Source: a virus. From it: DNA of 64,000 nucleotides. This document shows, one piece after another, positions 14,643-60,181 of this stretch. Location: positions 335,797 to 399,796 of the IMG/VR virus record IMGVR_UViG_3300036770_003657; one strand, given 5' to 3'. Under the pieces are notes generated by a model. The model was given only the letters and a program-made list of their open reading frames with translations. It had not been told where the DNA came from and did not search any database. The position numbers were made by a program, and so were the translations under genes. Position 1 is the first letter of the stretch; each line of letters starts with the position of its first letter.

Positions 14643-14660
14643 AATTTGTAAAAGGCTAAA

Positions 14661-14789: not shown

Positions 14790-14854
14790 ACATGTTCCTT
14801 TCTAGTTAGTATGTATATATATTAACGCCTGTGTGTGTAAATGTGCTGACTTAT

Positions 14855-15250
14855 TTATTGAGCAGTTTGCTCAATCATATGTTTTTGTTTGTAGTCTGTT
14901 ATTGCGGCCTTAATGGCATCCTCTGCCAAAATGCTACAGTGAATTTTTACAGGTGGCAGAGCCAATTCTTCGGCTATATGCGTGTTTCTAATTTCCCCTG
15001 CTTGTTCAAGACTGCGTCCTTTGACCCATTCTGTAACAAGACTACTACTGGCTATGGCACTACCACATCCATATGTCTTAAACTTTGCGTCGGTAATAAT
15101 GCCATCTTCCACCTTGATTTGTAATTTCATTACATCACCACAAGCAGGTGCTCCCACCATGCCTGTTCCTATGCCAGATTCGTCTTTGGCAAAACTGCCT
15201 ACATTACGTGGGTTTTCGTAGTGGTCTAATACTTTTGTTGAATATGCCAT
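14855..15250 (-). CDS. iscU: IscU, Fe-S cluster scaffold
   Basis: 131 residues. All ligands are intact: Cys37 and Asp39 (P-A-C-G-D-V), Cys62 (Y-G-C-G-S-A), His104-Cys105 (I-H-C-S). The chaperone-binding motif L-P-P-V-K (98-102), recognised by Hsp70-type HscA, is also conserved. IscU builds clusters with the cysteine desulfurase IscS, which is not in the window. A GAGGAG site in the preceding gene serves this start. A full IscU is unusual in phage and fits the iron-handling set here. Confidence 0.94.
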   Translation of the reverse strand: MAYSTKVLDHYENPRNVGSFAKDESGIGTGMVGAPACGDVMKLQIKVEDGIITDAKFKTYGCGSAIASSSLVTEWVKGRSLEQAGEIRNTHIAEELALPPVKIHCSILAEDAIKAAITDYKQKHMIEQTAQ

Positions 15251-15383
15251 CTATAACTTTCTCCTCAATGTGTTTATGTGTTTTAGGGGTAGGTGGCAAT
15301 TTTAAATTCTCAAACTTCTTTAGAAACAATAACCAAGCCTCATCATCTTTCGAATCAGCATCAATTTTTGGATCTATTGACAT
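15204..15383 (-). CDS. 59-aa hypothetical overlapping iscU start
   Basis: Begins M-S-I-D-P-K-I-D-A-D inside the end of the His-rich gene and runs 47 bases into iscU. It contains L-K-L-P-P-T-P-K-T-H-K-H. Both overlaps suggest translational coupling, but the frame may only be a spacer. No Shine-Dalgarno is clear. Confidence 0.4.
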   Translation of the reverse strand: MSIDPKIDADSKDDEAWLLFLKKFENLKLPPTPKTHKHIEEKVIDGIFNKSIRPLRKPT

Positions 15384-15724
15384 GAAAATACGGATCCGTA
15401 TATGGGACGACCGTGTTGGTCTTTAAACCAACCTTTTTCCTCTCTGAGCATGGTTCCTAATGGACAAGTCAATGTAGGAACAGCATTCATATCATAGATT
15501 ACACTAGGTTTAGGGTTCTCATTCATAATTATTGTTTGTGTATCGTTACGCTGATTGGCTATTACAGCACCAGCAATACCACCAATAATTAATGGGGCTA
15601 CCCAATGATGTGCGGGTGGACTATTCCAATGTCTATGGTGATGATGTCTGTGTCCATGATAAGGACCCGCATCTACACCAGTACTAAAAATTGTTAAAGC
15701 CAAACCTAGTATAATCTTTTTCAT
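15374..15724 (-). CDS. Secreted His-rich protein, glycine-zipper-like
   Basis: 116 residues. Signal peptide ends D-A-G. Right after it comes H-G-H-R-H-H-H-H-R-H-W, then a hydrophobic Gly-rich helix (I-I-G-G-I-A-G-A-V-I-A) and a C-terminal domain with two cysteines. The His cluster could bind Ni, Zn, Cu or Fe in the periplasm (inference). GATAAATA lies 27 bases upstream. Confidence 0.7.
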   Translation of the reverse strand: MKKIILGLALTIFSTGVDAGPYHGHRHHHHRHWNSPPAHHWVAPLIIGGIAGAVIANQRNDTQTIIMNENPKPSVIYDMNAVPTLTCPLGTMLREEKGWFKDQHGRPIYGSVFSCQ

Positions 15725-15749
15725 AATCTACCCCTTAAAGGTTGTAAAA

Positions 15750-15950
15750 TTATTTATCCTTGCTTTCTTTACGTGAGTTTTTGACTTCTGTAACGTGGTT
15801 TCTAACTTCTTTACATAATTTGGCTAATTCTTGAAGGTGTTTACGCACACGAGTTCCAGCGGCATTATTGCCTTTATTGTAAAACTTTTCAAAATCGTCC
15901 TGCATACCTTCCATTAAGGTCTTAAACTCATTAAATCTACTTGAATCCAT
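15750..15950 (-). CDS. Histone H1-like Hc1-family protein
   Basis: 66 residues from the ATG at 15950 (AAGGAG 7 bases upstream). F-N-E-F-K-T-L-M-E-G, L-E/F-E-K-F-Y-N-K-G-N-N-A-A-G-T-R-V-R-K and the Lys-rich end match the N-terminal half of chlamydial Hc1-type proteins, which also occur in marine phages. Likely binds DNA. Confidence 0.78.
   Translation of the reverse strand: MDSSRFNEFKTLMEGMQDDFEKFYNKGNNAAGTRVRKHLQELAKLCKEVRNHVTEVKNSRKESKDK
15751..15758 (-). promoter_or_regulatory. Late-type promoter for the His-rich secreted protein
   Basis: GATAAATA on the minus strand, in the last codons of the Hc1-like gene and 27 bases before the next ATG. Confidence 0.45.
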
Positions 15951-16006
15951 ATAAATCTCCTTGTACATAATTTAGCATAATCTATACTATAGTCAAAGAA
16001 AAACGA

Positions 16007-44135: not shown

Positions 44136-44763
44136 ATTCGTAACTTACAGTGTTAGTATCACCCAATGCCCACTTAGGATTAGTTTCAACCCTATACACT
44201 TTGGTACATACCTTAAAGTCTGGAAACTTAAGTTCTTTTGGATTGCTGGCAGCGTCTAAAAATATACAACGATTGTTAGGCTGTGCCGCATATTGTCCGT
44301 TATCCAATTCTATAAAATTATAACTCTTGTGATCTTCTGGCCATTCACTATATGTAGTATCGATTACATTAGGATCAGCGTGTGCTTGATCCACTGTGAA
44401 CATATATGATCCACTATAGAATTGTTTATCCTTAGCATAGAACTTACAACTTAGATTTTTTAAAAAACTTTTTTGTATAACAGTCATATCGTAACTAAAG
44501 CAGTCCCATATCTGTAAAGTGTCTAATTCAAGTTGTGCGCCTAAGTTGTCTGTTCTACTTACAAATGCATTGATGGGCAACTTGTCATACAGTGCTCCAT
44601 AATTAGGCAAGTAAGCTTCTATCCTAAATGCCTGTCCTCTTATACTTTTAAGACTTACCCATATACAAGGCTCATAATCTCCTTGACCCTGTTCAAAATC
44701 ATATAAGAATTCACGTTTGATATAGCAGTGTATTGGAGGTATGTTGGCAACTAGAAAACTCAT
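44134..44763 (-). CDS. Conserved phage hypothetical (209 aa)
   Basis: Starts M-S-F-L-V-A-N-I-P-P-I-H-C-Y. Contains Y-E-P-C-I-W-V-S-L-K-S-I-R-G, Y-G-A-L-Y-D-K-L-P-I-N-A-F and W-D-C-F-S-Y-D. A beta-rich soluble protein; the same type is frequent in marine T4-like phages. Function unknown. Overlaps the desaturase stop. Confidence 0.75.
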   Translation of the reverse strand: MSFLVANIPPIHCYIKREFLYDFEQGQGDYEPCIWVSLKSIRGQAFRIEAYLPNYGALYDKLPINAFVSRTDNLGAQLELDTLQIWDCFSYDMTVIQKSFLKNLSCKFYAKDKQFYSGSYMFTVDQAHADPNVIDTTYSEWPEDHKSYNFIELDNGQYAAQPNNRCIFLDAASNPKELKFPDFKVCTKVYRVETNPKWALGDTNTVSYE

Positions 44764-45461
44764 CTTAGTTTGGCCAAACCTAATAGCATTAGCATTTTAA
44801 GATATACATAGCCTATGTCTATTTCCCACCACTTTTCGCTGAGCTTGACACTGCTGGGCTTGTTATGGTGGTTGTTGTGGAGTTCCTCTCCTCCGATAAT
44901 GAATCCAAACGGTATAATATTTCTACTGCGATCAGAAGTTGAACTATTGCGATAGCCCCAATAATGCCCAATACCATTGATAACGCCCGCTGCCCAAAAT
45001 GGTATCCACGCCATCTGAATAAGCCAAATAAGAATACCCCAGCCATTAAAACATAAAGTGTTGATGATAAGAAGTGATAGTATGCCATGACAAGTATATT
45101 TACTATAAATGTTGCGTTCTACCCAATCATCAGGAGTACCTACTCCATATTGATCTATCATTGTACGATCTCTACTGGCTATATCATATAACCAAGCACC
45201 TTTAAACAGTACATTGCATATACCGTATACATGTGGACTATGTGGATCATTAAACTGATCTGTGAACCTATGATGCTTACGATGTATGGCTACCCATTCC
45301 TTAGTATTCATACCTGTTGTAAACCATAACCAAAAACGCATAAAGTGACTGACCACAGGATTGAACACTATACCCTTATGTGCCTGTCCACGATGTAAAA
45401 ATAATGTTACACATACTATAGTAATATGTGTAGCCGTTAAAAGATATAATAGTTCAATCAT
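44760..45461 (-). CDS. Fatty-acid (acyl) desaturase
   Basis: 233 residues, membrane helices with all three His boxes: H-R-G-Q-A-H (23-28), H-R-K-H-H (60-64) and H-N-N-H-H near the C-terminus. The diiron enzyme puts a double bond in acyl chains using O2 and an electron donor. Shorter than cellular homologues but complete. It overlaps genes on both sides, so it is co-translated with the metalloprotease/HD gene. Confidence 0.92.
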   Translation of the reverse strand: MIELLYLLTATHITIVCVTLFLHRGQAHKGIVFNPVVSHFMRFWLWFTTGMNTKEWVAIHRKHHRFTDQFNDPHSPHVYGICNVLFKGAWLYDIASRDRTMIDQYGVGTPDDWVERNIYSKYTCHGILSLLIINTLCFNGWGILIWLIQMAWIPFWAAGVINGIGHYWGYRNSSTSDRSRNIIPFGFIIGGEELHNNHHNKPSSVKLSEKWWEIDIGYVYLKMLMLLGLAKLR

Positions 45462-46351
45462 AAGTGGTGTTTCACTCCAAGCTTGGCACCTAACATGTTC
45501 AAACTCATTAGGTATTTCTTTTGACTACTAGCAGCACGCTCTGGATCCCAACTGCTTTTATCTCCAGTATAGTTTTCATAATTGTCAGCATACTTAACCA
45601 TCATGGCTAATGGATTACCACTGTTAATTATAGCTTCTATATTTTGTCTATAGGTTAGGCTCTTGTTCTTTGTTAGTAGGCCCACTGCCTGTATGACCTG
45701 TGGTGTAAATTCTAACTTGGCCAGCTCATCTATACCAATATGTGTATCTTCTACCACATCGTGTAGGAAGGCTGTTTTCACTGCATCACTGTTAAACCTA
45801 CTGCCAAATATCTTCTTACCAGTTAAGGCCACTGCTCTAGGATGACGCCAATATGGTAGACTACCATATAGTTGATCACCGTGTGCTTGTTTAATAAACT
45901 TAAGAGTTTGTGCTACATTGAGTTCGTTAAGAGGTTCTATACTTTCAGCAAGTAGAGCAGCATGTTGAAATAGCTCTGGGTTCATCTTACCCCATAGTCT
46001 CATTATTACAGCAGCCTTAGCATTAGCTTCATTCTCATGTTCACTACCATCCTCTCCACTATCTGGAGTGAGCACTCCCATACTATCTTGTTTATAGTGG
46101 ACTAGTTCATGTGCTAGAGTTCTAAGTACATCCATAATGTGTCTATTTCCCACATTAAGCTCTATACGTCCACCCATATAGCCACCAAAGCTACGACGAC
46201 TACTGGCCAGTTTGGGATCACTATATAATTTAATCTTAGGTAGGTCGTTCAATTTTATGTGTTTACTAGCGAACCTTAAAAAGTTTTGAATAATAGACTT
46301 GGTTTCATCATCTACCCTAGGTGGTTTTTCTTTTAGCTCTTTAAAGTTCAT
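45458..46351 (-). CDS. Metalloprotease fused to SpoT-type HD (ppGpp hydrolase-like) domain
   Basis: 297 residues. Residues 1-130: zinc protease with H-E-L-V-H (81-85) and downstream E-H-E-N-E-A. Residues 145-297: HD fold of RelA/SpoT/Mesh1 hydrolases, with Y-W-R-H-P-R-A-V-A (His170), F-L-H-D-V-V-E-D (197-202) and V-K-Y-A-D-N (Asp256). The linker L-L-A-E-S and L-N-E-L could be cut by a T4-type prohead protease. The N-terminus M-N-F-K-E-L-K-E looks like a capsid-targeting peptide. The fusion might be injected to lower (p)ppGpp (inference). Confidence 0.78.
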   Translation of the reverse strand: MNFKELKEKPPRVDDETKSIIQNFLRFASKHIKLNDLPKIKLYSDPKLASSRRSFGGYMGGRIELNVGNRHIMDVLRTLAHELVHYKQDSMGVLTPDSGEDGSEHENEANAKAAVIMRLWGKMNPELFQHAALLAESIEPLNELNVAQTLKFIKQAHGDQLYGSLPYWRHPRAVALTGKKIFGSRFNSDAVKTAFLHDVVEDTHIGIDELAKLEFTPQVIQAVGLLTKNKSLTYRQNIEAIINSGNPLAMMVKYADNYENYTGDKSSWDPERAASSQKKYLMSLNMLGAKLGVKHHL

Positions 46352-46548
46352 ATGAATCTTTTATTCTTATTTTGTTCTATAAATGCCTGGTGCTTTATTG
46401 CTCTACAATTATCACAATCACATTCTTTACACTCACATTCTACACATTGTTCTTTACTACAATGATGTGCGTGTCCGCAAGTATGACATGGAGTAAACAA
46501 TCTCTGAGTATTTCCATCTAATGCATCTAATATAGTAAACATGCTCAT
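46348..46548 (-). CDS. Cys-rich, metallothionein-like small protein
   Basis: 66 residues from the ATG at 46548 (GGAG 6 bases upstream). C-H-T-C-G-H-A-H-H-C then C-V-E-C-E-C-K-E-C-D-C-D-N-C: ten Cys and several His packed in about 35 residues. It probably binds Zn or other metal. Overlaps the metalloprotease gene by 4 bases. Confidence 0.7.
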   Translation of the reverse strand: MSMFTILDALDGNTQRLFTPCHTCGHAHHCSKEQCVECECKECDCDNCRAIKHQAFIEQNKNKRFI

Positions 46549-46550
46549 TT

Positions 46551-46751
46551 TTAACTCCAAGGCCTCCCTTGTTCTAATCCTCCTATATTAGGATTATCTA
46601 CTATATCATTACCATCGTATTGTGTGGGCAATTTAGTTATATCATAAGTGCTAGGTCTGTCTGTTGCTGCTCTTTTTATTGCTGCTAGATCTAGTTTAGC
46701 TTTTTGACGTAGCTCTTTGGTAGCTAGTGTACTGATTCCATTTTGCGCCAT
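46551..46751 (-). CDS. Hypothetical 66-aa protein
   Basis: The ATG at 46751 has GGAG 5 bases upstream. L-R-Q-K-A-K-L-D-L-A-A-I-K-R helix then a Pro/Asp-rich tail ending G-R-P-W-S. No family is recognised. It heads the minus-strand operon that includes the desaturase. Confidence 0.6.
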   Translation of the reverse strand: MAQNGISTLATKELRQKAKLDLAAIKRAATDRPSTYDITKLPTQYDGNDIVDNPNIGGLEQGRPWS

Positions 46752-46768
46752 AGCAACTCCATTTTGAA

Positions 46769-46784
46769 TATTTATCAATAAATA
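46769..46784. promoter_or_regulatory. Back-to-back late-type promoters
   Basis: GATAAATA on the minus strand (46769-46776) directly abuts AATAAATA on the plus strand (46777-46784). They point to the 66-aa gene and to hemA respectively. Confidence 0.45.
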
Positions 46785-46792
46785 CTAGTACT

Positions 46793-47989
46793 ATGATAGA
46801 TAAAATCCACTTCAAACGCTTAATCGGCGACTTAAAAGATTCGGGCAAATATCGTGTGTTCAACAATATAGTCCGTGAAAAAGGTAAATTTCCAAACTCA
46901 ATATGGTACGGTCCATACGCAATCAAGAACATCGTTAACTGGTGCTCTAACGATTACCTCGGAATGGGTCAGCACAAAGTTGTCATAGACGCAATGCACA
47001 CTGCACTAGATCAAACTGGTTCAGGGTCAGGTGGTACTAGAAACATCGGCGGGACCAGTACTTATCACGTTGCTTTGGAAACAGAACTAGCATTCTTACA
47101 TCGTAAGGATCGTGCTTTATTATTCAGCAGTGCTTATGTGGCTAATGAATGGAGTCTTATAGCACTGAGTAAAATTGTACCTAATATACACTTTGTGAGC
47201 GATAGTAAAAATCACAATAGTCTAATAGTAGGTATCAGTCATAGTAAGGCTCCGAAAACCGTGTTCACACACAACGATATGGAAAACCTTGAAAGCATAC
47301 TTAAAGCAGTTAGAGATGCTGGAGAGACTCCTTGCGTAGTGTTTGAAAGCGTATACAGTATGGATGGCGATGTTAGCACGATGACTGAAATATGTGACCT
47401 TGCTGACAAATACGAAGCCATTACCTATATTGATGAAGTACACGCAGTAGGCCTATATGGTGAACGTGGTGCAGGTAAGTTGGAAGAACTTAAACTACAA
47501 CATCGTGTGGACATTGTAAATGGTACATTAGGTAAAGCATATGGTGTACAAGGCGGATATATAGCGGCAGATAGTGAAGTGGTAGATGCTATACGCAGTG
47601 TAAGTCATGGCTTTATCTTTACTACAAGTATGAGCCCTGTTAGTTGTGCTGGTGCATTATCAGCAGTTAAATTTCTTAAAGAACATAATGAAATAAGAGA
47701 AAAGCATCAGGAGCGTGCCAATAGACTAAAAACATTATTGAAACAAAATGATCTTCCACTTATGAATACTAGTACACATATTGTGCCAGTGCTTGTAGGC
47801 AATGCTGTTCGTGCTAAGGCAATGAGCGATGCCCTACTAGAAGATCATAACATATATGTTCAACCTATAAATTATCCTACAGTGGCAGTAGGCACAGAGA
47901 GACTACGTTTTGCTCCAACTCCATATCATGATGATGGTATGATGGAGAAGTTAATTGTGGGATTGAAGGATATTTTTAGTCGGATTTAA
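46793..47989 (+). CDS. hemA: 5-aminolevulinate synthase (Shemin pathway)
   Basis: 398 residues, alpha-oxoamine synthase fold. [15 protein letters not shown] (His142), [12 protein letters not shown] (Asp214, His217) and the PLP lysine Lys248 in T-L-G-K-A-Y-G, which has the same number as in Rhodobacter ALAS. Makes 5-aminolevulinate from glycine and succinyl-CoA, the first committed step of tetrapyrrole synthesis. Full length and intact. It stands alone on the plus strand between minus-strand genes, with its start 8 bases after AATAAATA. Confidence 0.93.
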
Positions 47990-48416
47990 GACTAGCACGT
48001 AACATCCATCCGTGTTTGTTATGTGCATCAATCCTACCAGCAATGAAGTCACTAAAGCCATATTCATTATGGCTTTCACTTGCTTGAAATACTAATTTCA
48101 ATAATTTTATAATTCTTAAATTATCTTCTAATAGAGTAGCCACCATTTGCTCTTTGGGCAATATACTGACTTCATCCTCTATTTGGGTTAACATACTAAA
48201 TCTGCTAAAACTAGCTGGTACGTATGTGCCTAATCCTCTGATCTGTTCGGCAAAAACATCTATACTTTCAAATACTTCCTCGTATATATCCCCAAACAAT
48301 TGATGATATTGAGCAAAATCAGGACCTTCTACATTCCAATGAAAGTTATGTGCCTTTAGGTAAAAGGCAAATGTAGTACTAAAAGCTACTTTGGCTGCTT
48401 TGTGTAGTTCGTCCAT
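47976..48416 (-). CDS. dps: Dps-family ferritin
   Basis: 146 residues. N-F-H-W-N-V-E-G-P, with ferroxidase residues His26, His38, Asp53 and Glu57 ([11 protein letters not shown]). Dps stores iron and shields DNA from oxidative damage. It is convergent with hemA and overlaps its end by 14 bases. Suggests handling of iron freed by heme oxygenase (inference). Confidence 0.9.
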
Positions 48417-48848
48417 TTAGCACCAACTCTGCTTGGCCTCACCGTAATACTCACGGGCAAATCCGTTTTTAATTAATTGACTGCGTAGGCTTACACCATT
48501 TAGTACGATATCACCTAGTACACGACCACCATATTTGTCCCAACCATATAGTATGACTTGGTGCTTTTGCGTACTGGCCACAGCATTTTGTGTAAACTTG
48601 CTGGCTGCTTGTCCACGTTGATCTTCACTGGCACATTGTGCTCTATGTCCTTTCTCTGGAGTATCTACTCCAAATATACGCACACTTAATTGTGGCTTTA
48701 GGGGAGCGGGTAAGAAAGGTGCTTCAATGACCACTGTGTCACCATCAGTGACTTTTAATATTTTGGCATCGTAGGTTACGCCATTAGGCATCTTTTGTGC
48801 CATGGCCATTAAGGGTAAAAAGAATAGGGCTATTAGTAATTTTTTCAT
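48417..48848 (-). CDS. Secreted staphylococcal-nuclease-like (SNase) protein
   Basis: 143 residues. Signal peptide (L-L-I-A-L-F-F-L-P-L-M-A-M-A), then V-T-D-G-D-T-V-V-I, V-R-I-F-G-V-D-T-P-E and Y-G-R-V-L-type G-R-V-L-G-D. Catalytic Asp, Arg and Glu positions appear present. Would cut DNA/RNA in the periplasm. Confidence 0.88.
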   Translation of the reverse strand: MKKLLIALFFLPLMAMAQKMPNGVTYDAKILKVTDGDTVVIEAPFLPAPLKPQLSVRIFGVDTPEKGHRAQCASEDQRGQAASKFTQNAVASTQKHQVILYGWDKYGGRVLGDIVLNGVSLRSQLIKNGFAREYYGEAKQSWC

Positions 48849-48853
48849 AGTAA

Positions 48854-48861
48854 TATTTATT
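48854..48861 (-). promoter_or_regulatory. Late-type element next to the SNase gene
   Basis: AATAAATA on the minus strand 5 bases before the ATG; near-leaderless if used. Confidence 0.3.
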
Positions 48862-49279
48862 AAAAACTGTTATTGAACCATCCAACTTTGCGTCCTTCTG
48901 CTATACGGCGATCATGCTCTTCTGGTGTACTAGGATAACGCCAGGCCCATACAGCCACACAGAGCATAAACACACTAGTATATATTATGCCGCGTATGGG
49001 CACTCCTCCTGTGTACATAAGTACTAGGCTCAACGTCATACTGGCCAGCATAAAGAATTTTAACTTTAAGGGAAACACACGTTTAGTATTCCAGTCTGTT
49101 AGAAACTTACCAAATATACGATGATTCATAATCCAAGCATGTAAGCGTGGACTGGATCTAGCAAAGCAATAAGCAGCACCTACTACGAATGGACTATATG
49201 GTAATCCTGGAGTAATGACTCCTATATAGGCCATGCCTACGCTAATAAATCCCAAACACATCCATAGATACTTTTTCAT
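48860..49279 (-). CDS. DUF454 (YbaN-like) inner-membrane protein
   Basis: 139 residues from the ATG at 49279 (GGGGAAG upstream). G-V-I-T-P-G-L-P-Y-S-P-F, A-R-S-S-P-R-L-H-A-W and three to four helices match the YbaN family. The function is unknown even in bacteria, where ybaN is often found near heme genes (as I recall). ATGA overlap with the radical SAM gene. Confidence 0.82.
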   Translation of the reverse strand: MKKYLWMCLGFISVGMAYIGVITPGLPYSPFVVGAAYCFARSSPRLHAWIMNHRIFGKFLTDWNTKRVFPLKLKFFMLASMTLSLVLMYTGGVPIRGIIYTSVFMLCVAVWAWRYPSTPEEHDRRIAEGRKVGWFNNSF

Positions 49280-50145
49280 AATCTTCCCCAACTATTTTCG
49301 CTCTTGCGTGCCTGTAGATCAAAGCCATTTGAACATAAACGTCGCTGACACATTATAGGATCTGTAGGCCAGTTTATATTGTCCATATATAAATTACCTA
49401 TTGATCCACCTTGCTCACACCATCCTCGGTACACGTCACCAAACTTATCTATTACAAATTGTTCAACTCCGGCCCAACACATATGTCCGTGATACTCGTT
49501 TAATCTATGTAACTTTTTATACTCAATTTGATCAACTATTTGTTCTTCACCTACATCTTTATCTCTGTAATAAAAATTTAATTGTTGTTCGCTGTACTGA
49601 TAATAGTCATTATTACCTTTAGTAAAATTTTTATACAATAATTGTATTTCAGGTGTATATCCTCTGACTTCTAGTAAGTCTTTTATCTTTATGATGTCAT
49701 TCCAATATTTGGGAGTAATCGGTAGTTTCACTGTAACATCTACATTTTTCTCTTTAAGTTTTTCTAATACAAAGATCAAGTGTTCAACTGGTAGGAAGTG
49801 TAGATGATAACTTATGTTTACTCTATTGAAAAATTTACCATACTGATCCCACCAACTAATTTCTCTACTTCCGTTGGTTTCTAAAACAATTCGTTTATTT
49901 GGATTTGGTATAGAATTATTTAATGCCCATTCTAGTCCTCTGAACACTGTGGGCTCACCACCTATTAGGCTTAATTCAAAACTATCAAAATGGTCATAGA
50001 CTTTGGCAAAGCCTCTGACAAATACTAAGGGATCTGGTAGGCCAATACTGCCAGACTTTAGTATGTCTGGACAGTATTCGCAGTTGAAATTACAATGATT
50101 GGTAAAGTTCCACTGTATTCTTATTGGTTGATATATGCCAGCCAA
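49276..50145 (-). CDS. Radical SAM enzyme with C-terminal Cys cluster
   Basis: 289 residues. C-N-F-N-C-E-Y-C (C-x3-C-x2-C) binds the [4Fe-4S] cluster; L-S-L-I-G-G-E-P-T follows; C-terminal cysteines (M-C-W-A-G, W-C-E-Q-G, M-C-Q-R-R-L-C) suggest an added SPASM-type cluster. The substrate is unknown, perhaps a peptide or sugar. It overlaps the HNH gene. Confidence 0.87.
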   Translation of the reverse strand: MAGIYQPIRIQWNFTNHCNFNCEYCPDILKSGSIGLPDPLVFVRGFAKVYDHFDSFELSLIGGEPTVFRGLEWALNNSIPNPNKRIVLETNGSREISWWDQYGKFFNRVNISYHLHFLPVEHLIFVLEKLKEKNVDVTVKLPITPKYWNDIIKIKDLLEVRGYTPEIQLLYKNFTKGNNDYYQYSEQQLNFYYRDKDVGEEQIVDQIEYKKLHRLNEYHGHMCWAGVEQFVIDKFGDVYRGWCEQGGSIGNLYMDNINWPTDPIMCQRRLCSNGFDLQARKSENSWGRL

Positions 50146-50633
50146 GAGTCCTGCCTTACATTGAATGGTATTGCTCTACGCTTATTTACCAATTCAAAGT
50201 ATGCTGGCTTGTAGGGCTTGACCTTAGGCTTCATCCTAGTATCACTGCCCTTGGCTGCATTGCAGGGTCCACAGGCTGTGACAGTGTTATCGAACACAGT
50301 CTTGCCACCTTGGCTCACAGGCTTAACATGATCCAATGTACAGTCTTTTTTCTGTAGGTGTTTGTCACAGTATAGGCAAGTATAATTGTCTCTTAGGAAC
50401 ACATTGCTCTTACTGAATCTTACATAGCTTTTTGGCTTAGTATATTCTCTGAGCATGATAATACTGGGCACAAAGGTTTCCCAATTAACACTGCGTACAA
50501 TCCAATTCTCATACCATTCAATCACAGAAGCCTTATCCAATACCATATAGCGGATTGACTCTTGCCAATTAATTGTGCTAAGAGGAAGATAGTTTAAAGG
50601 TTGTCCGTCTGCGTTAAGAACTAGTGTGTCCAT
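50121..50633 (-). CDS. HNH endonuclease
   Basis: 170 residues. Y-T-C-L-Y-C, L-D-H-V-K-P, G-G-K-T-V-F-D-N-T-V and A-C-G-P-C-N form a zinc-supported HNH site in the 5-methylcytosine-restriction-type family. It is present as a free gene, not inside an intron. Own sigma70-like promoter. Confidence 0.9.
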   Translation of the reverse strand: MDTLVLNADGQPLNYLPLSTINWQESIRYMVLDKASVIEWYENWIVRSVNWETFVPSIIMLREYTKPKSYVRFSKSNVFLRDNYTCLYCDKHLQKKDCTLDHVKPVSQGGKTVFDNTVTACGPCNAAKGSDTRMKPKVKPYKPAYFELVNKRRAIPFNVRQDSWLAYINQ

Positions 50634-50655
50634 AATTTACTACTCAAAAAATTGT

Positions 50656-50684
50656 ATTATACTACCGGTCCTGTGTTTAGTCAA
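50656..50684 (-). promoter_or_regulatory. Sigma70-like promoter of the HNH/radical SAM operon
   Basis: On the minus strand TTGACT (50679-50684), 17-base spacer, TATAAT (50656-50661). Confidence 0.6.
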
Positions 50685-51225
50685 ATATTGATTGGACGAA
50701 ATCGTTGCTACTACGTTCTAAACTTTGGAGCCATTGATCCTTAAGGTCGTGATGAAATACCAAATCATAATTAGCACTGCTTATTAACCAACTAGCATTA
50801 CGATCTCTAGGTGGAGCACCATCATATTCTTCTTGTAGTTGTTCTGGGCTCCAACCACATAGGCCTAAGAATAACCTAAAGTGTTTAGGAGCATCACCTT
50901 CACCCAATCTTGGCAATAGGTCATCACTGCTACTGATACTAAACTCTTTATTAATACGCATGGTATTAGATCCTGCCCATTCACTGCTATGCAACATGGT
51001 AAGTGCCTTAATATTAACAGGACCGCCCACATATATATAACCTGGTATGTTTAATCTTTCACCTATTTGCTCTGTAAACTCAGCAGTACTAACGCTACTG
51101 CGTTTGTTCAAAAGTAAACCCATACTGCCGTTTACGTGATCTTCTGTGACAAAAATAACACTTTTATACCAAAATCCTGTTTTCATTTTTGGTGGGGCAA
51201 TTAATAATTTTCCGGTAAAATCCAT
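50677..51225 (-). CDS. AlgH/YqgE (UPF0301) family protein
   Basis: 182 residues. G-K-L-L-I-A-P-P, G-S-M-G-L-L-L-N-K-R, Y-V-G-G-P-V and L-F-L-G-L-C-G-W-S-P-E-Q-L-Q match the family core. Known bacterial members have unclear roles in transcription or cell surface. Uncommon in phages. Preceded by AGGATAAC. Confidence 0.88.
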   Translation of the reverse strand: MDFTGKLLIAPPKMKTGFWYKSVIFVTEDHVNGSMGLLLNKRSSVSTAEFTEQIGERLNIPGYIYVGGPVNIKALTMLHSSEWAGSNTMRINKEFSISSSDDLLPRLGEGDAPKHFRLFLGLCGWSPEQLQEEYDGAPPRDRNASWLISSANYDLVFHHDLKDQWLQSLERSSNDFVQSIFD

Positions 51226-53943: not shown

Positions 53944-54370
53944 AGGCAGCAATTTAACAGCATTTGATTTGGATGGAGTATTCATTCCTGATTGTGACCA
54001 AATTCCAGATTTAGGTGATCACGAAGCCTATTTGAATTTGACTATGTATATGCAACCCGTATTCAAACCAGTAGGTGAATGGATCCTACTAACAGGTAGA
54101 CCAGCAGAATATGAGCACGTTACCAAAAGTTGGTTGCTCAAATATTTTACTAATCAACCCAAAATGATCCTTCATCAAAGAGATGCTGAAAAGGAAACTA
54201 ACGAAGAATACAAATTGCGTATGATTAAGGAACATGATATTGATGTCTATATAGAAAGTGATAAAAAAATCGTGGATCACTTAAAAGGTAATTTGGATGT
54301 GGATAAAAAGACTATACAGCATTTCAGCGAGTTCTGTGAGTTGTATTTGAACTACAACGCAGGAGCTTGA
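53936..54370 (+). CDS. HAD-superfamily phosphatase-like protein
   Basis: 144 residues. F-D-L-D-G-V-F (D-x-D motif I), L-L-T-G-R-P (motif II) and I-E-S-D-K-K (motif IV-like). Small HAD proteins with this form act on nucleotides or 5'/3' phosphates. Coupled to the phosphoribosyltransferase, so nucleotide metabolism is likely. Confidence 0.75.
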   Translation: MSKGSNLTAFDLDGVFIPDCDQIPDLGDHEAYLNLTMYMQPVFKPVGEWILLTGRPAEYEHVTKSWLLKYFTNQPKMILHQRDAEKETNEEYKLRMIKEHDIDVYIESDKKIVDHLKGNLDVDKKTIQHFSEFCELYLNYNAGA

Positions 54371-54395
54371 CAATATCTAAGTTTTCGCATATAAT
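54367..54395 (+). promoter_or_regulatory. Sigma70-like promoter before the lipoprotein
   Basis: TTGACA (54367-54372), 17-base spacer, TATAAT (54390-54395). Confidence 0.8.
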
Positions 54396-55043: not shown

Positions 55044-55269
55044 AGACCTATTGGGTCGTAAGGTTGGGGTTGGATCATTTGTGGCCTTTACCCAAAACAA
55101 TAGACTGTTCGTTGGTCGTGTAATAAAATTAAACAGACAAATGCTGCGTATTGAACGTATTAAACATACCAAATGGATGGCTGATCAGACCAATAAGTAT
55201 TCATATGATTGTGTGGTCATTCCAGATAAGGATGTGGACTTTTATATACTGAGGAATATTACAAAATGA
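55021..55269 (+). CDS. Hypothetical small beta protein
   Basis: 82 residues from the ATG at 55021. V-G-S-F-V-A-F-T-Q-N-N-R-L-F-V-G-R-V-I-K-L has an SH3/KOW-like strand pattern. The last residues Y-I-L-R-N-I and the sequence ACTGAGGAAT precede the first array gene, a layout like that of the later array. Confidence 0.6.
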   Translation: MLETPEHKDLLGRKVGVGSFVAFTQNNRLFVGRVIKLNRQMLRIERIKHTKWMADQTNKYSYDCVVIPDKDVDFYILRNITK

Positions 55270-55466
55270 AAATGAGTAGCGTGGAAGTTGGCCTATTCAA
55301 ACTGCCTGGTGTAGTATTTGAGCGTGATGTTCTCACTCCAGAGAAAGTAGAACAGATCAATGCTTGGTGTGCGGAAAATAACTGCGGCAAGCAAATGACT
55401 GACCTACTTTGGAGTTTTAAAAAGCCCACACAGCGTGACATGTTCATACTACGGTGGAGTGAATAA
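55266..55466 (+). CDS. WFxLRW-array protein 1
   Basis: 66 residues. Helix with I-N-A-W-C-A-E-N-N-C-G-K, then L-L-W-S-F-K-K and the end D-M-F-I-L-R-W-S-E. First member of the array. CGGTGGAG in its last codons serves the next gene, whose ATG overlaps the TAA. Function unknown. Confidence 0.75.
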   Translation: MKMSSVEVGLFKLPGVVFERDVLTPEKVEQINAWCAENNCGKQMTDLLWSFKKPTQRDMFILRWSE

Positions 55467-55654
55467 TGTATACGATTAAGTCTGAGCACATCTTACTTCG
55501 TGCATCAACACACTATTATTCAGAAGTATGGCAGGGTGGTAAGTTAGGAATGCTAGATTGGCTTGATAAGGAGTTTGGTGCTAGAACAAATGACGGTGTT
55601 ATTTATTTTAAAACAGAAGCCAAGCGTAATTGGTTTGCTCTAAGATTCTCATGA
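55466..55654 (+). CDS. WFxLRW-array protein 2
   Basis: 62 residues. M-L-D-W-L-D-K-E-F-G helix, G-V-I-Y-F-K-T-E-A strand and N-W-F-A-L-R-F-S end, with F in place of the final W. Ends by TCATGA overlap into gene 3. No clear Shine-Dalgarno at this junction. Confidence 0.75.
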   Translation: MYTIKSEHILLRASTHYYSEVWQGGKLGMLDWLDKEFGARTNDGVIYFKTEAKRNWFALRFS

Positions 55655-55941
55655 GCGGATCCAGTTTAAAAAAAGTTGTGGATGACCTTTATCGTATACT
55701 TAATCGTAAGGCAAGATATTATTGGAGTGAATCTGGGCTAGAATTGAAACTAATTGCCGAAATGGATTGGGAAGATGGAACTGGTATCCACGCACCAGAT
55801 CAGCACGTAGTTGAACGTATAGCAGAATGGTGTTATAAGAATCGTTGTGGACGTCGTACTAGTTATGATACATTTAAGTTTCGTAATCGTAAACAAATTA
55901 CTTTGTTCCTACTACGTTGGGGTGAAGTAAAGGATGAGTAA
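55651..55941 (+). CDS. WFxLRW-array protein 3
   Basis: 96 residues from the ATG at 55651. A longer N-terminus, then I-A-E-W-C-Y-K-N-R-C-G-R-R-T and T-L-F-L-L-R-W-G followed by a five-residue acidic/basic tail. The overlap with gene 4 is 8 bases. Confidence 0.75.
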   Translation: MSGSSLKKVVDDLYRILNRKARYYWSESGLELKLIAEMDWEDGTGIHAPDQHVVERIAEWCYKNRCGRRTSYDTFKFRNRKQITLFLLRWGEVKDE

Positions 55942-56134
55942 GGATTGGCAGGGTTGGGAAATAGTTAGTATACAACAACCCGCTAATAGTCTAGTTGGCT
56001 GGAGTGAATGCTTGGCTTGGTGTGACCATACCCTAAAGCCTCATACCTATTACTATATGGGCGAGGGTGTGTTTACTTTTAAAAATGAATGTGATGCTAC
56101 ATGGTTTAAACTAAGGTGGGATAATGGAAATTAA
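55934..56134 (+). CDS. WFxLRW-array protein 4
   Basis: 66 residues. C-L-A-W-C-D-H-T-L-K-P-H-T-Y, G-V-F-T-F-K-N-E-C-D-A-T-W-F-K-L-R-W, then D-N-G-N. It shows the full layout: W-C helix, hairpin, strand, motif. Confidence 0.75.
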   Translation: MSKDWQGWEIVSIQQPANSLVGWSECLAWCDHTLKPHTYYYMGEGVFTFKNECDATWFKLRWDNGN

Positions 56135-56285
56135 AAGACTAATGATTCCTTTGGATGATGATAGAATTGCCAGTTTGCTATTTAGGCGAGTCAACGATGG
56201 CAATGATTGGGTATGTGTGATGAACGATGAGTTTATGACAGATCTATCTGATTTATTGGAAGTAGAAGAACATACACTACAATGA
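56124..56285 (+). CDS. 53-aa acidic hypothetical, array insert
   Basis: M-E-I-K-R-L-M-I-P-L-D-D-D-R, then D-L-S-D-L-L-E-V-E-E. Lacks the array motif. Its ATG sits in the GGTGGGATAATG junction of gene 4, showing that the junction can host foreign genes. Overlaps the following gene by ATGA. Confidence 0.6.
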   Translation: MEIKRLMIPLDDDRIASLLFRRVNDGNDWVCVMNDEFMTDLSDLLEVEEHTLQ

Positions 56286-56542
56286 ACTACGACGACGTTA
56301 AATTCAATAACAAATTAGATGAGATGATAGAGCGAGCAGGTGGTCGTCTATATCTTGCTCACTTGGATCGTCCAGCACTAGAACGCTTTGTTAGAATAAT
56401 GCTGGAGGATATTGAAGAAGATATTAAAGGTTGGCGTGATAGTAAGGATGATAGTATGTATGGTGACTACTGGGAAGGCTATGCTCAAGGCTGTGCGGAT
56501 AGTATAGTAGCGGTGAGACTATGGGCACAAGACATAACCTAG
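56282..56542 (+). CDS. 86-aa hypothetical, array insert
   Basis: Helical and acidic, with M-L-E-D-I-E-E-D-I-K-G-W and Y-W-E-G-Y-A-Q-G-C-A-D-S-I. No array motif. Unknown role. Confidence 0.65.
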   Translation: MNYDDVKFNNKLDEMIERAGGRLYLAHLDRPALERFVRIMLEDIEEDIKGWRDSKDDSMYGDYWEGYAQGCADSIVAVRLWAQDIT

Positions 56543-56796
56543 ATCACTTGCCCAGACAGGGGCAATATGAATTATTCATCAGTGCCAATCATATCTATTG
56601 TTTTGATGATCTTGATCATGTTAAATGGCCTAATAACGAGCAAACTCAGAGTTGGCTAGCCAAGCAAAATAGTGTACTATGTAGAGCATACATAACTCAA
56701 GATAATAACAAGCCCAGTGCTTATTATTTGGATCCTAAATTATATTTTATGTGGAAATTGGCTTGGAGTGAATATGCGAAACCGATCCGGATATAG
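56521..56796 (+). CDS. WFxLRW-array protein 5 (degenerate end)
   Basis: 91 residues. The motif region reads L-Y-F-M-W-K-L-A-W-S, followed by eight extra residues. The SD (TTGGAGTG) for gene 6 lies at the motif, with the ATG inside this gene. It looks like a member whose end has drifted past the old stop. Confidence 0.6.
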   Translation: MGTRHNLDHLPRQGQYELFISANHIYCFDDLDHVKWPNNEQTQSWLAKQNSVLCRAYITQDNNKPSAYYLDPKLYFMWKLAWSEYAKPIRI

Positions 56797-56974
56797 TCTT
56801 CCTGATTATGCCTTATATCGTTATAAGTGGCAGTATAACGGCATAGCACCATTTGAGGAAATAAGCGATTGGTGTAGGAATAATCTTAAAGGCCATACTT
56901 ATATACCATATGAAACTATTTGGTTCAGTAATGAGCGGGACTATCATTGGTTTTTATTACGGTGGAGTTCATGA
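56774..56974 (+). CDS. WFxLRW-array protein 6
   Basis: 66 residues. E-I-S-D-W-C-R-N-N-L-K-G-H-T-Y, T-I-W-F-S-N-E-R-D-Y-H-W-F-L-L-R-W-S-S. ATG at 56774, 6 bases after GGAG. It resembles gene 4 in the H-T-Y turn. Confidence 0.75.
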   Translation: MRNRSGYSLPDYALYRYKWQYNGIAPFEEISDWCRNNLKGHTYIPYETIWFSNERDYHWFLLRWSS

Positions 56975-57228
56975 AATATATAGAAGATCCTGACATCTGG
57001 TACAATCTACAGACACACTTTTCAAATAATTTTATTCCCCGCTTGGAGAATGATGATAAGGTTTGGGCAATGGCATTTAAACGGTGGCTAAAAGATCAAG
57101 GTGCTGACATTGAAATGAAATTGGGTTATAGATTAATTCGTAATAGTTTGGGCATAGCACCTCACTATGATCGATTGGTCTTTGAAGATGATCGAGATGC
57201 CACAATGTTTATATTGAGGTGGTCATGA
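56971..57228 (+). CDS. WFxLRW-array protein 7
   Basis: 85 residues from the ATG at 56971. A-F-K-R-W-L-K-D-Q-G-A-D helix, R-L-V-F-E-D-D-R-D-A-T-M-F-I-L-R-W-S end. First of the eight uniform GAGGTGG junctions. Confidence 0.78.
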   Translation: MKYIEDPDIWYNLQTHFSNNFIPRLENDDKVWAMAFKRWLKDQGADIEMKLGYRLIRNSLGIAPHYDRLVFEDDRDATMFILRWS

Positions 57229-57476
57229 AGCCAAGTGAATTACTGGCCATAGCAGAAAAATACTGGCTCACGGAGTATGATTTTAACAAGCCCGTAGCAC
57301 CGGATACGCCCTTTGTCACAGGTGACGGCCGCTATGATGCTATATTATATGACATGCTCGTTCAACATGGTGTAGAATTGATATTGAAACAGAGTAGACA
57401 TAGAAATTGGAAATTGGAAGATTACCGTGTGGTTGATAACAAAAAGTTTATGTGGTTTTTGATGAGGTGGTCATGA
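57225..57476 (+). CDS. WFxLRW-array protein 8
   Basis: 83 residues from the ATG at 57225. Contains L-V-Q-H-G-V-E-L-I-L-K-Q and ends F-M-W-F-L-M-R-W-S. The start codon and TGA stop of gene 7 overlap. Confidence 0.78.
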   Translation: MKPSELLAIAEKYWLTEYDFNKPVAPDTPFVTGDGRYDAILYDMLVQHGVELILKQSRHRNWKLEDYRVVDNKKFMWFLMRWS

Positions 57477-57679
57477 AATTCCGTATGATCGATATGGGCT
57501 ATCGTCAGAGTCCCGACTATCCTTATAACTATAGGATTGAACTCTTTGATTATGGTTTCGAAGAACGCCGGCAGTTAAGTCTGTGGTTAAATGATCTTAA
57601 AATTCCCCATACCACAACTGGCAGTGTGATATACTTGGGCGAGAAATATGCTAATTGGTTTGCTTTGAGGTGGTCATGA
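57473..57679 (+). CDS. WFxLRW-array protein 9
   Basis: 68 residues. R-Q-L-S-L-W-L-N-D-L-K-I-P-H-T, G-S-V-I-Y-L-G-E-K-Y-A-N-W-F-A-L-R-W-S. The 3' codons are nearly identical to those of genes 10-12. Confidence 0.8.
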   Translation: MKFRMIDMGYRQSPDYPYNYRIELFDYGFEERRQLSLWLNDLKIPHTTTGSVIYLGEKYANWFALRWS

Positions 57680-57894
57680 GTGAAAGAATTGATCATGTCA
57701 TTGACAAAAGAGGGTATGTGCTTATGGGAGATAGTAGGGGCATAGTCACACCATATGAACTAAGACAAGAGATTTATGAATGGGCTCAAAAGAATAACAT
57801 AGAAATAGAATACCATGGCAGTCTTGATAGAAAAGATCTATGGTATGTAAAAAACGATCAGCATCGTAATTGGTTTACTTTGAGGTGGTCATGA
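57676..57894 (+). CDS. WFxLRW-array protein 10
   Basis: 72 residues. I-Y-E-W-A-Q-K-N-N-I-E-I-E-Y, L-W-Y-V-K-N-D-Q-H-R-N-W-F-T-L-R-W-S. A standard member. Confidence 0.8.
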   Translation: MSERIDHVIDKRGYVLMGDSRGIVTPYELRQEIYEWAQKNNIEIEYHGSLDRKDLWYVKNDQHRNWFTLRWS

Positions 57895-58232
57895 AAATAC
57901 AGGGAATAAAAAAACTTAGGGATGATCAAAAGATTTTTGTGTTGGGCAAGATTACTCCGCATGCGTTTCGTCAATATATGGATCGCTACTCAGATTTTGG
58001 TTGGGCTATGGAAACGAGAGCACATCATGCTATTAAACGTTTAATAAAACATGAGCATATGGAATTATACCAATGGTTGTTGAGTCAAAATTGTCAAACA
58101 ACCAATTGGATTGATGATGAAATATTTTCACTTCCATATCAATTCCGTAATCAGGTAGATTATTTTGATTGGGGTATAGGGTTTAAGTTTAATGATCCTG
58201 CAGAAACTTGGTTTACTTTGAGGTGGTCATGA
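57891..58232 (+). CDS. WFxLRW-array protein 11 (longest)
   Basis: 113 residues. An extended helical N-terminus (residues 1-55), then Y-Q-W-L-L-S-Q-N-C-Q and F-K-F-N-D-P-A-E-T-W-F-T-L-R-W-S. May have an added N-terminal domain. Confidence 0.8.
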   Translation: MKIQGIKKLRDDQKIFVLGKITPHAFRQYMDRYSDFGWAMETRAHHAIKRLIKHEHMELYQWLLSQNCQTTNWIDDEIFSLPYQFRNQVDYFDWGIGFKFNDPAETWFTLRWS

Positions 58233-58462
58233 TGACTAGGTTAGTTTGTTTGCCTGCTCACGAAGGACCTGTGCTAAATGCTGCTATTTGGTTGAGACAG
58301 CACTTAAACATACCCCAGTATGAAACTATGGAAAGTCAGTTTGAAGAATATTTTAATTGTCGGGTGGTAAGAGAGCCACCACACGATTTGGTCTATGGTA
58401 AAATATTTGCTGTGTTTGACTGTGAGCGGGATGCTAATTGGTTCGTATTGAGGTGGTCGTGA
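58229..58462 (+). CDS. WFxLRW-array protein 12
   Basis: 77 residues. A-A-I-W-L-R-Q-H-L-N-I-P-Q-Y, then F-A-V-F-D-C-E-R-D-A-N-W-F-V-L-R-W-S. Two ATGs lie in a row at the start; the first is in the best place for the SD. Confidence 0.8.
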   Translation: MMTRLVCLPAHEGPVLNAAIWLRQHLNIPQYETMESQFEEYFNCRVVREPPHDLVYGKIFAVFDCERDANWFVLRWS

Positions 58463-58662
58463 GACAATTGAAGAAAGAACTATGGCCCTGTAGTGTTAGA
58501 GTAAACTTGCCACCCGAGGATATAACACCTGTTGAACTATGGTTAGCCCTACAGTTTGGTGCATTAAAGGATAGATGGAATGTGATTTATAGATTCAATC
58601 ATACAGAGTACTATTTTCGTAATCAAAAAGACGCTAATTGGTTCGCATTGAGGTGGGCGTAA
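58459..58662 (+). CDS. WFxLRW-array protein 13 (GTG start)
   Basis: 67 residues. The junction reads TCGTGA, so the start is GTG overlapping the TGA. Contains V-E-L-W-L-A-L-Q-F-G and Y-Y-F-R-N-Q-K-D-A-N-W-F-A-L-R-W-A. Confidence 0.78.
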   Translation: MRQLKKELWPCSVRVNLPPEDITPVELWLALQFGALKDRWNVIYRFNHTEYYFRNQKDANWFALRWA

Positions 58663-58925
58663 TGGCAGAAACTATACGCAAGTTCGCTGAACAAAGGAAA
58701 GTAAAGAACTGGGACCACACCACTGCCAAAAATGTACAAGAAGAATACCAAGCCTCTGGCTACTATCCTGTGCAGTTAGGCATGCTGGGCCTAGTGGGTG
58801 AATGGCAGGAATGCCATCGGTGGTGTCGTGACTATATAGGTGAGGATCACTATAGTTGGACAGGATCAACATTTTGGTTTGAAACAGAGCAAGCGGCTAT
58901 GTGGTTCGCATTGAGGTGGGCATGA
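58662..58925 (+). CDS. WFxLRW-array protein 14
   Basis: 87 residues. E-C-H-R-W-C-R-D-Y-I-G-E-D-H-Y, S-T-F-W-F-E-T-E-Q-A-A-M-W-F-A-L-R-W-A. Starts by TAATG overlap with gene 13. Confidence 0.8.
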   Translation: MAETIRKFAEQRKVKNWDHTTAKNVQEEYQASGYYPVQLGMLGLVGEWQECHRWCRDYIGEDHYSWTGSTFWFETEQAAMWFALRWA

Positions 58926-59128
58926 GTAAAAGAGATTGGTGTAATATCGCTGTTAGTGTGCCTTGGCGTAGCCCTGGACAATGGCGTGACCTGCGTATTT
59001 GGCTACAGGAAAATGTCAACGATATGGACTACGATGCTGCCGGTGTAGATTTACAGCGTTACGATCAAAGAGTATTTTATTTTGCTAGACCGAAGGATGC
59101 AATGTGGTTCGCACTGAGATGGAGTTAA
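58922..59128 (+). CDS. WFxLRW-array protein 15
   Basis: 68 residues. L-R-I-W-L-Q-E-N-V-N-D, R-V-F-Y-F-A-R-P-K-D-A-M-W-F-A-L-R-W-S. Its last codons (GATGGAGTT) give the SD for the following non-array gene. Confidence 0.8.
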   Translation: MSKRDWCNIAVSVPWRSPGQWRDLRIWLQENVNDMDYDAAGVDLQRYDQRVFYFARPKDAMWFALRWS

Positions 59129-59129
59129 T

Positions 59130-59519
59130 ATGATTGATAAAACAGTAGAAGAGTTCTGTAAGAGATATGAAGCAAGAATAGTACGCACCGGCCAGTATCA
59201 TCGTAGGGCAGAACCGAGTCCTTGGCGTATACCTGGCTATTATGAAACAAGTACCATAAAAAATGTCGACTTCTTCAATATTACTGAAGTGCCTATAACA
59301 AGTATTACCCTGCCAGAAGATCGGCTTGGTGCATTGGTAGAACACGAACAGCGTGTATCTGATTTTGTAGAACCTTTCCACCGAGGCCATGTTGGCAAAT
59401 ATCAACACATAGAAGCCCATATAGCAGAACAAGAAATTGAATGTCGCCTGCGTCATACTAATCCTGCACTGAAGAAGGCCTGGGACAATTATCAAATGCT
59501 ATTGAGGCTGGTAAGATGA
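59130..59519 (+). CDS. 129-aa hypothetical, array insert
   Basis: Y-E-A-R-I-V-R-T-G-Q-Y-H-R-R, D-F-F-N-I-T-E-V-P-I-T, and a Glu-rich helical C-terminus (H-I-A-E-Q-E-I-E-C-R-L-R-H). Lacks the array motif. The family is unknown. Confidence 0.65.
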   Translation: MIDKTVEEFCKRYEARIVRTGQYHRRAEPSPWRIPGYYETSTIKNVDFFNITEVPITSITLPEDRLGALVEHEQRVSDFVEPFHRGHVGKYQHIEAHIAEQEIECRLRHTNPALKKAWDNYQMLLRLVR

Positions 59520-59746
59520 AGTGTGGCTGTTATGAGTGTGTAAAGAATGATTTACTTCTAGTTATGAGCACTATTATAGTGTGTGGTACCTGTGGTAATA
59601 AACGCTGTCCACATGCTACTAATCATTTACTGCCCTGTACCAATAGCAATGAGCCAGGACAATTAGGATCAAGGTATGGCACTTGGCCACATCCTGATCT
59701 GCCTTTTTATGAATTCATATCTAAAGGTCAAAAGGATAAAATCTAA
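59516..59746 (+). CDS. Zinc-binding small protein
   Basis: 76 residues. C-G-C-Y-E-C, C-G-T-C-G-N-K-R-C-P-H-A-T-N-H and C-T-N-S-N-E-P-G-Q: Cys/His-rich ligand sets for one or two zincs. Similar short proteins occur in marine T4-like phages. Not an array member. Confidence 0.68.
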   Translation: MKCGCYECVKNDLLLVMSTIIVCGTCGNKRCPHATNHLLPCTNSNEPGQLGSRYGTWPHPDLPFYEFISKGQKDKI

Positions 59747-59756
59747 TATATAGTGT

Positions 59757-59975
59757 ATGAGCATACAAGTCACTGTGCCTAATCAACATACTGGTCAACT
59801 CATAGACATGGTAAGAGAATTAAAAAAACAGGGACTAGAACAAGGGCGGGATTTCGATTTTAGGTTTATGCCTGCTGTATATGATTTTGCTAACAATCAT
59901 AGTGAGCCAAGGCATGCGGTATTTGTTTTCTACGAGGAAAAATGGGCAACTTGGTTCACACTAAAATGGCTTTGA
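59757..59975 (+). CDS. WFxLRW-array protein 16
   Basis: 72 residues with a different N-terminus (I-Q-V-T-V-P-N-Q-H-T-G-Q-L-I-D-M), V-F-V-F-Y-E-E-K-W-A-T-W-F-T-L-K-W-L end. K replaces R in the motif, and the GAGGTGG is lost at this junction (CACTAAAATGG). Confidence 0.72.
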   Translation: MSIQVTVPNQHTGQLIDMVRELKKQGLEQGRDFDFRFMPAVYDFANNHSEPRHAVFVFYEEKWATWFTLKWL

Positions 59976-60181
59976 ACAATTTAGGCTATCCTGATATATA
60001 TCCTGGTTGGCATTACTTACATAAGAAGTATAACATAAATCCTAAAGAAACAGACATTTATGAAATGTTTGCTTGGTGTGATGATAACATTGGTGAGTTT
60101 GGTGTAGACTGGGATTGGCACATTGATACCTTTTGCTTTCGTAGAGCCAAGGATGCTACAATATTTGGACTGAGGTGGTAA
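59966..60181 (+). CDS. WFxLRW-array protein 17
   Basis: 71 residues from the ATG at 59966. M-F-A-W-C-D-D-N-I-G-E-F, F-C-F-R-R-A-K-D-A-T-I-F-G-L-R-W and stop right at the W. GAGGTGG leads into the next gene. Confidence 0.75.
   Translation: MALNNLGYPDIYPGWHYLHKKYNINPKETDIYEMFAWCDDNIGEFGVDWDWHIDTFCFRRAKDATIFGLRW

Follow-up and report, generated by a model that had tools for sequence, protein, structure and literature searches.

Arrays of small phage genes in which a conserved C-terminal motif appears to double as the ribosome site of the next gene

A large family of small proteins, encoded in arrays by environmental viruses, carries a C-terminal motif whose codons appear to serve as the ribosome site of the following gene. 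The reading that we favour, at a probability of roughly 0.8 and in the absence of expression or ribosome data, is an operon built of interchangeable gene cassettes, each with a single domain and dual-coded ends. Each cassette would start at an ATG overlapping the stop of the preceding cassette and would end in a helix coded F-x-L-R-W-S, where TTG AGG TGG TC followed by ATGA would double as a strong Shine–Dalgarno sequence lying 5 nt upstream of the following start. A ribosome finishing one cassette could thereby reinitiate on, or be recruited to, the next. Because each cassette would supply the downstream ribosome site and the overlap would reset the frame, the chain could stay translatable when a cassette between two junctions is deleted, inserted, duplicated or exchanged for another. 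Exchanges are observed at the shared junction (~15–26 nt), on which homologous recombination probably acts. As far as sequences alone can establish it, the motif, the overlap, the coupling-dependent choice of codon and residue, and the junction-precise turnover are real; reinitiation in cells, repeat-driven recombination and accessory products aimed at hosts or competitors are inferred only.

The arrays provide a clear natural case, in hundreds of copies, of a protein motif that is also the next gene's ribosome site, and the copy number suffices to show translational coupling selecting an amino acid, beyond synonymous codons. They suggest a simple rule by which phages could add, drop and shuffle operon genes without new regulatory DNA, and bear on the question whether short homologies at gene boundaries are used in phage mosaicism.

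The array and its junctions

The window, by which we mean the whole 64,000-nt stretch of DNA analysed, corresponds to bases 335797–399796 of a 399,796-base IMG/VR virus record, i.e. to the record's end. The record codes for a T4-type gp23 major capsid protein whose best INPHARED matches are those of jumbo phages (Sinorhizobium phage Phosso, 69.5 per cent; Vibrio phage 2.275.O, 69.3 per cent; the Escherichia phage 121Q group, 65.6 per cent); the source of this ~400-kb record is a T4-like jumbo phage. Sixteen small plus-strand paralogous ORFs with C-terminal F-x-L-R-W in common lie at 55266–60181 of the window, and a profile search of the record found no further family members elsewhere in it. 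The features are listed below in window coordinates.

54367–54395 (+): perfect match to a sigma-70-type promoter, TTGACA-17-TATAAT, preceding the array (pattern scan)
55266–55466 (+): family member, ends MFILRWSE; CTACGGTGG; next ATG at 11 nt
55466–55654 (+): family member, ends WFALRFS; CTAAGATTC
55651–55941 (+): family member, ends LFLLRWGEVKDE
55934–56134 (+): family member, ends WFKLRWDNGN; CTAAGGTGG; next ATG at 7 nt
56774–56974 (+): family member, ends WFLLRWSS; structure modelled
56971–57228 (+): cassette, ends MFILRWS; junction TTGAGGTGGTCATGA at 57214–57228
57225–57476 (+): cassette, ends WFLMRWS; junction ATGAGGTGGTCATGA (M-R-W)
57473–57679 (+): cassette, ends WFALRWS; junction TTGAGGTGGTCATGA at 57665–57679
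57676–57894 (+): cassette, ends WFTLRWS; junction TTGAGGTGGTCATGA at 57880–57894
57891–58232 (+): cassette, ends WFTLRWS; junction TTGAGGTGGTCATGA at 58218–58232
58229–58462 (+): cassette, ends WFVLRWS; junction TTGAGGTGGTCGTGA at 58448–58462; GTG start
58459–58662 (+): cassette, ends WFALRWA; junction TTGAGGTGGGCGTAATG from 58648
58662–58925 (+): cassette, ends WFALRWA; junction TTGAGGTGGGCATGA at 58911–58925
58922–59128 (+): final member of the closely packed run, ends WFALRWS; CTGAGATGG; next ATG at 10 nt
59757–59975 (+): family member, ends WFTLKWL
59966–60181 (+): family member, ends IFGLRW; CTGAGGTGG; next ATG at 7 nt

The original prediction described eight successive L-R-W junctions with overlapping stop/start in the interval 57210–58925. 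All eight do lie there, but the family is wider than this interval. Direct reading and a pattern search confirm that each junction consists of T or A plus TGAGGTGG and an overlapping stop/start, with ends at 57228, 57476, 57679, 57894, 58232, 58462, 58662 and 58925. The L-R-W codons had been taken to be identical throughout; this holds for seven junctions, which carry exact TTGAGGTGG (starting at 57214, 57665, 57880, 58218, 58448, 58648 and 58911), but not for the one at ~57462–57470 (gene end 57476), which reads ATGAGGTGG and codes for M-R-W rather than L-R-W. The stop/start forms are those predicted: TCATGA five times, TCGTGA, GCGTAATG and GCATGA. GAGGTG, correctly recognized as matching the 16S anti-Shine–Dalgarno complement at normal spacing, sits within UAAGGAGGUGA, the complement of the 16S tail; AGG and ATG are separated by 5 nt at the window junctions and by 8 nt at the TAATG junction. 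Over the whole 399,796-base record, this strand holds four copies of TTGAGGTGGTCATGA, each of them in the array, against none for the reversed control.

The outer window members use other Leu–Arg codons (CTACGG, CTAAGA, CTAAGG, TTACGG, CTGAGA, CTAAAA, CTGAGG), which makes a test of coupling on codon choice possible. The outermost ones lack the strong site yet stand in the same strand run, and this counts against the dual-use model. The member at 58922–59128 has long spacing and no AGG; its relative in locus L007 is coupled and has AGG.

Perfect TTGACA-17-TATAAT matches number 29 in the record, against one for the reversed pattern, and only one occurs in the 60 kb preceding the array. A promoter and terminator scan found neither element at the junctions; terminator-like sites in the array region fall below the shuffle count, with no convincing terminator inside. 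A single transcript is therefore plausible, given the promoter match upstream, and each cassette would then, by inference, depend on coupling. Outside the window, G000:C1:10312-19385 holds 13 perfect promoter matches in 9 kb; in most the spacer starts with GGTCTTT, resembling a repeated early-promoter unit. By eye, from translations, window positions 4564–16000 and 44760–51225 contain host-like metabolic and stress genes (heme oxygenase, Hsp20, DnaK, IscU, fatty-acid desaturase, Dps, AlgH), together with 5-aminolevulinate synthase at 46793–47989 (+).

The family beyond the window

IMG/VR was searched by a peptide-pattern scan combined with a DNA pattern that left the Leu and Arg codons free and was thus codon-neutral; members were then defined by an iterated profile on the ORF ends of the loci found. 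The alignment of the 16 window members was too divergent for a viral scan, and an initial DNA pattern fixed too few bases. The family comprises 586 distinct members (median length 76 aa) arranged in arrays in 107 IMG/VR loci, 51 of which hold at least five. Conservation of the motif reaches 97 per cent for F, 94 per cent for L and 88 per cent for W. Seven of eight large environmental contigs (214–383 kb) carry 6 to 34 members each. Twenty pattern matches in GTDB genomes look like chance and were dismissed.

No relatives were found in INPHARED (50,697 phage records) by DNA search or single-protein tblastn; a profile search (E values up to 1, the best 9.6e-9) did find diverged relatives, 39 of them in Sinorhizobium phage Phosso and six in Agrobacterium phage Atu_ph07. 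In Phosso, Thr or Ala frequently occupies the motif Arg position and the ribosome site is weaker (−3.5 versus −1.3 synonymous, n = 10), so the environmental lineage shows dual use most strongly; judging from Phosso, it is not universal across the wider family. Runs of small hypothetical genes overlapping by 4 nt, many ending in FKL[TAR]W, are present in Phosso (PV764938.1) at 6673–9451, 12938–14020 and 369506–370992.

The family is thus a large one of small proteins, with diverged relatives in cultured jumbo phages, whose shared domain lacks a PHROG or Pfam model: over that domain no PHROG profile reached 0.01 with any of 76 diverse members, and Pfam gave just three stray matches, of one member each. 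Window members had no significant PHROG or Pfam match. A literature search, which did not cover most subscription papers, found no published description of the family or the junction. The model of 56774–56971 (pLDDT 83) has a strand-helix-strand-helix order with L-R-W in the last helix, and the shared domain is accordingly predicted to be beta-alpha-beta-alpha. With this model, the PDB fold search gave a best Z of 4.8 and no standout match (ferredoxin-like and RRM-like folds were considered), while BFVD matches, all above E 0.001, were mostly uncharacterized proteins of uncultured phages.

About 11 cassettes in different phages have an N-terminal segment ~33–56 per cent identical to gp23 residues 50–97:

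L029:505-844 (strand-oriented coordinates, as for the next six): gp23-like N-terminus
L051:230-617: gp23-like N-terminus
L069:1354-1843: gp23-like N-terminus
L052:5974-6319: gp23-like N-terminus
L112:11826-12171: gp23-like N-terminus
L132:6487-6832: gp23-like N-terminus
L079:9728-10070: gp23-like N-terminus
L024, L026, L088 and L092 (−): gp23-like N-termini

One further cassette, next in the L132 array, matches gp23 residues 149–223. Reversed queries gave no matches at E < 1e-3. PHROG 138 (major head protein) matches seven of 57 long members (best 2.9e-13), and Pfam Gp23 exceeds the cut-off in two tested members. These segments may act as decoys or dominant-negatives, or may be domains borrowed long ago. 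That small proteins of a single operon turn over quickly points to accessory roles directed at hosts or competitors, although this is an inference and their function is not known. It is conceivable, if improbable, that the arrays are a self-propagating library, each unit combining a variable module, the common domain and the next ribosome site, in which modules including fragments of conserved phage proteins, above all of gp23, would act as decoys for capsid sensing by the host or as dominant-negatives against competing T4-like phages. Upstream of the family domain, two other cassettes, L020:8976-9458 (+) and one in L098 (minus strand, oriented 2409–2868), contain, with weak statistics, a P-loop segment with a Walker-A-like sequence (SAGRQTGKS or SGGRQTGKS) and an NrdA-like segment, NLCxEI.

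Codon choice and translational coupling

Members were classed as coupled either loosely (ATG 5–12 nt after the Arg codon) or more strictly (start 5–9 nt downstream). In the loose class, AGG encodes the motif Arg in 278 of 355 coupled members, in nine of 37 without a nearby start and at 98 of 1255 other Arg positions (Fisher 7.6e-11). Under the stricter definition AGG reaches 82 per cent in coupled and 26–27 per cent in uncoupled members, against 8 per cent at the remaining Arg positions in these genes; the corresponding values are 72, 35 and 24 per cent for the Leu codon TTG and 88, 29 and 21 per cent for the Ser codon TCA. Among 29 loci holding both kinds, AGG was higher in coupled members in 20, lower in none and tied in nine. 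Its use follows spacing, at 82–100 per cent for 5–8 nt (217/266 at 5 nt and 46/55 at 8 nt) but only 1/11 at 10 nt. The Arg residue itself is present in 86 per cent of coupled versus 61 per cent of uncoupled members (p = 3.7e-9). Overlaps among 407 coupled members are of the ATGA type in 344 and the TAATG type in 50.

Pairing with the anti-Shine–Dalgarno sequence, computed with the usual sequence since the host is not known, averages −7.11 kcal/mol in coupled members versus −3.58 for synonymous randomizations, and −4.75 versus −3.79 kcal/mol in uncoupled ones; the mean for other window ORFs of at least 150 aa is −3.19 kcal/mol. At the 3′ end of upstream genes the Shine–Dalgarno signal is therefore stronger than coding constraint alone would give. 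The prediction that protein motif and ribosome site are one sequence is supported by this pairing and by the dependence of AGG on coupling and spacing. It would have been refuted had members without a downstream start kept the same codons, and they do not (AGG 24–27 per cent, versus 78–82 per cent coupled and 8 per cent background). Coupling appears to select synonymous codons and also the amino acid. One cassette (cluster 9) follows its context, with AGG where coupled (L005, L007), AGA in the window (10 nt) and AAA where uncoupled (L006); in other clusters some uncoupled copies keep AGG.

The motif is also a genuine protein motif, retained in uncoupled members with Lys, AGA or CGN at the Arg position. 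This persistence, the strong conservation of F, L and W and the inclusion of L-R-W in the modelled helix would all be expected if the motif were kept only for the fold and its likeness to a Shine–Dalgarno sequence were a by-product of codon usage. Such an explanation is hardly tenable, as AGG and Leu codons of the form NNG depend on there being a start within 5–9 nt and otherwise drop towards background, and pairing lies far above that of synonymous controls. The rarity of AGG in these genes (8 per cent) could instead point to a pause aiding C-terminal folding or release. However, a pause serving the upstream protein would not be expected to vanish when the start is 10–12 nt away or absent, as the bias does, and G at the third Leu position and TCA are biased too; rare-codon pausing was rejected as the cause because the bias depends on the downstream start, and we give it next to no credence. 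Homogenization of the junctions by gene conversion, rather than selection for a ribosome site, has in its favour that recombination at junctions is observed, but the 24-nt junctions are as alike between arrays (18.4/24) as within them (18.6/24), AGG is equally common before non-family (91/114) and family genes (180/215), and the x codon within the repeat varies freely. The first two results led us to reject gene conversion as the source of the codon bias, and it remains very unlikely.

Cassette turnover and comparison with known systems

The original prediction also held that the junctions can act as direct repeats for gaining, losing or shuffling cassettes, and would have been refuted had no recombination been seen there. 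Between arrays, 47 per cent of the 3′ ends of similar stretches fall within −10 to +9 nt of a member stop, versus 4.6 per cent expected by position. Of 85 near-identical cassette pairs in different contigs, 48 have unrelated and 37 the same downstream sequence. Several longer and shorter alleles (X-Y-Z versus X-Z) keep exactly one copy of a 21–26-nt junction repeat: L064/L067 differ by 478 nt between 98 per cent identical flanks, with a 35-nt overlap, and in a second allele by 585 nt; L064/L082 and L067/L082 differ by 239 nt; further cases are L013/L067, L013/L064 and L005/L017. The order of cassette pairs is conserved for 108 and found both ways for 12. Tandem duplicates occur in two arrays (L091:1736-2142, L105:2842-3290); their C-terminal halves are more alike than their N-terminal halves.

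Judged by these comparisons, exchange does occur at junctions, as predicted; what has not been demonstrated is that repeat homology causes it. Every boundary carries the motif, so that any gene-precise exchange leaves one junction copy and the breakpoints are no proof of repeat-driven recombination. The dual-coded site could be real and turnover still proceed by illegitimate or other recombination with selection for gene-precise products. This alternative concerns the recombination step only, is compatible with most of our model and must be kept as a serious, if not the favoured, possibility. It matches the classic view of phage mosaicism (PMC3029335); long shared repeats are absent from many indels, and the test for crossover within the motif (x codon versus neighbour) gave only a trend (identical 22/48 versus 24/37, p = 0.12). 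On the other side, several alleles share 21–40 nt of identical or nearly identical sequence at each end, extending in some past the start codon (L064 versus L067), and the tandem duplications fit unequal crossover. Repeat-driven recombination is thus likely, although not shown.

As far as the available literature shows, the combination of a ribosome-site repeat and boundary shuffling in a single coding repeat, by which a cassette family is defined, is new. The PeSL cassettes of T4-type phages, associated with Arbiol (2010) and Comeau (2014), are said to be intergenic promoter and stem-loop units, gene-boundary repeats that reportedly mediate modular shuffling. Whereas PeSLs are intergenic, the repeat described here is coding and translational, without promoter or terminator at the junctions; an early promoter plus stem-loop in an intergenic boundary is absent here, as the genes overlap and leave no intergenic space. 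Start-Associated Sequences of Cluster K mycobacteriophages, 13-bp GGGATAGGAGCCC before starts, are likewise short repeats with a Shine–Dalgarno core ahead of many non-structural genes (PMC3203893). They are not a protein motif and precede genes of different families, and the accessible portion of that paper does not describe cassette turnover at them; junction TTGAGGTGGTCATGA does not fit their consensus.

The 67/68 pair of mycobacteriophages Island3 and Brujita consists of adjacent genes sharing 18 C-terminal residues (~50 bp); recombination between them explains how one gene was lost or gained, and this was described as a first of its kind there (PMC3029335). It is a single event, with no ribosome-site role reported in the accessible part of the article, whereas the phage arrays contain hundreds of cassettes in about 100 loci with the ribosome site inside the repeat. 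Intragenic Shine–Dalgarno sequences at ATGA overlaps with reinitiation are well established, and removing the motif substantially cuts downstream translation in four of five Escherichia coli pairs (PMC6728339). The arrays resemble these termination–reinitiation pairs in their ATGA/TAATG overlaps and in the Shine–Dalgarno sequence at the 3′ end of the upstream gene. In those pairs, however, the site lies in unrelated coding sequences. In the arrays an entire family of paralogues has it as its conserved C-terminal motif, so that every cassette brings along a copy of the one sequence, which also constrains the amino acid.
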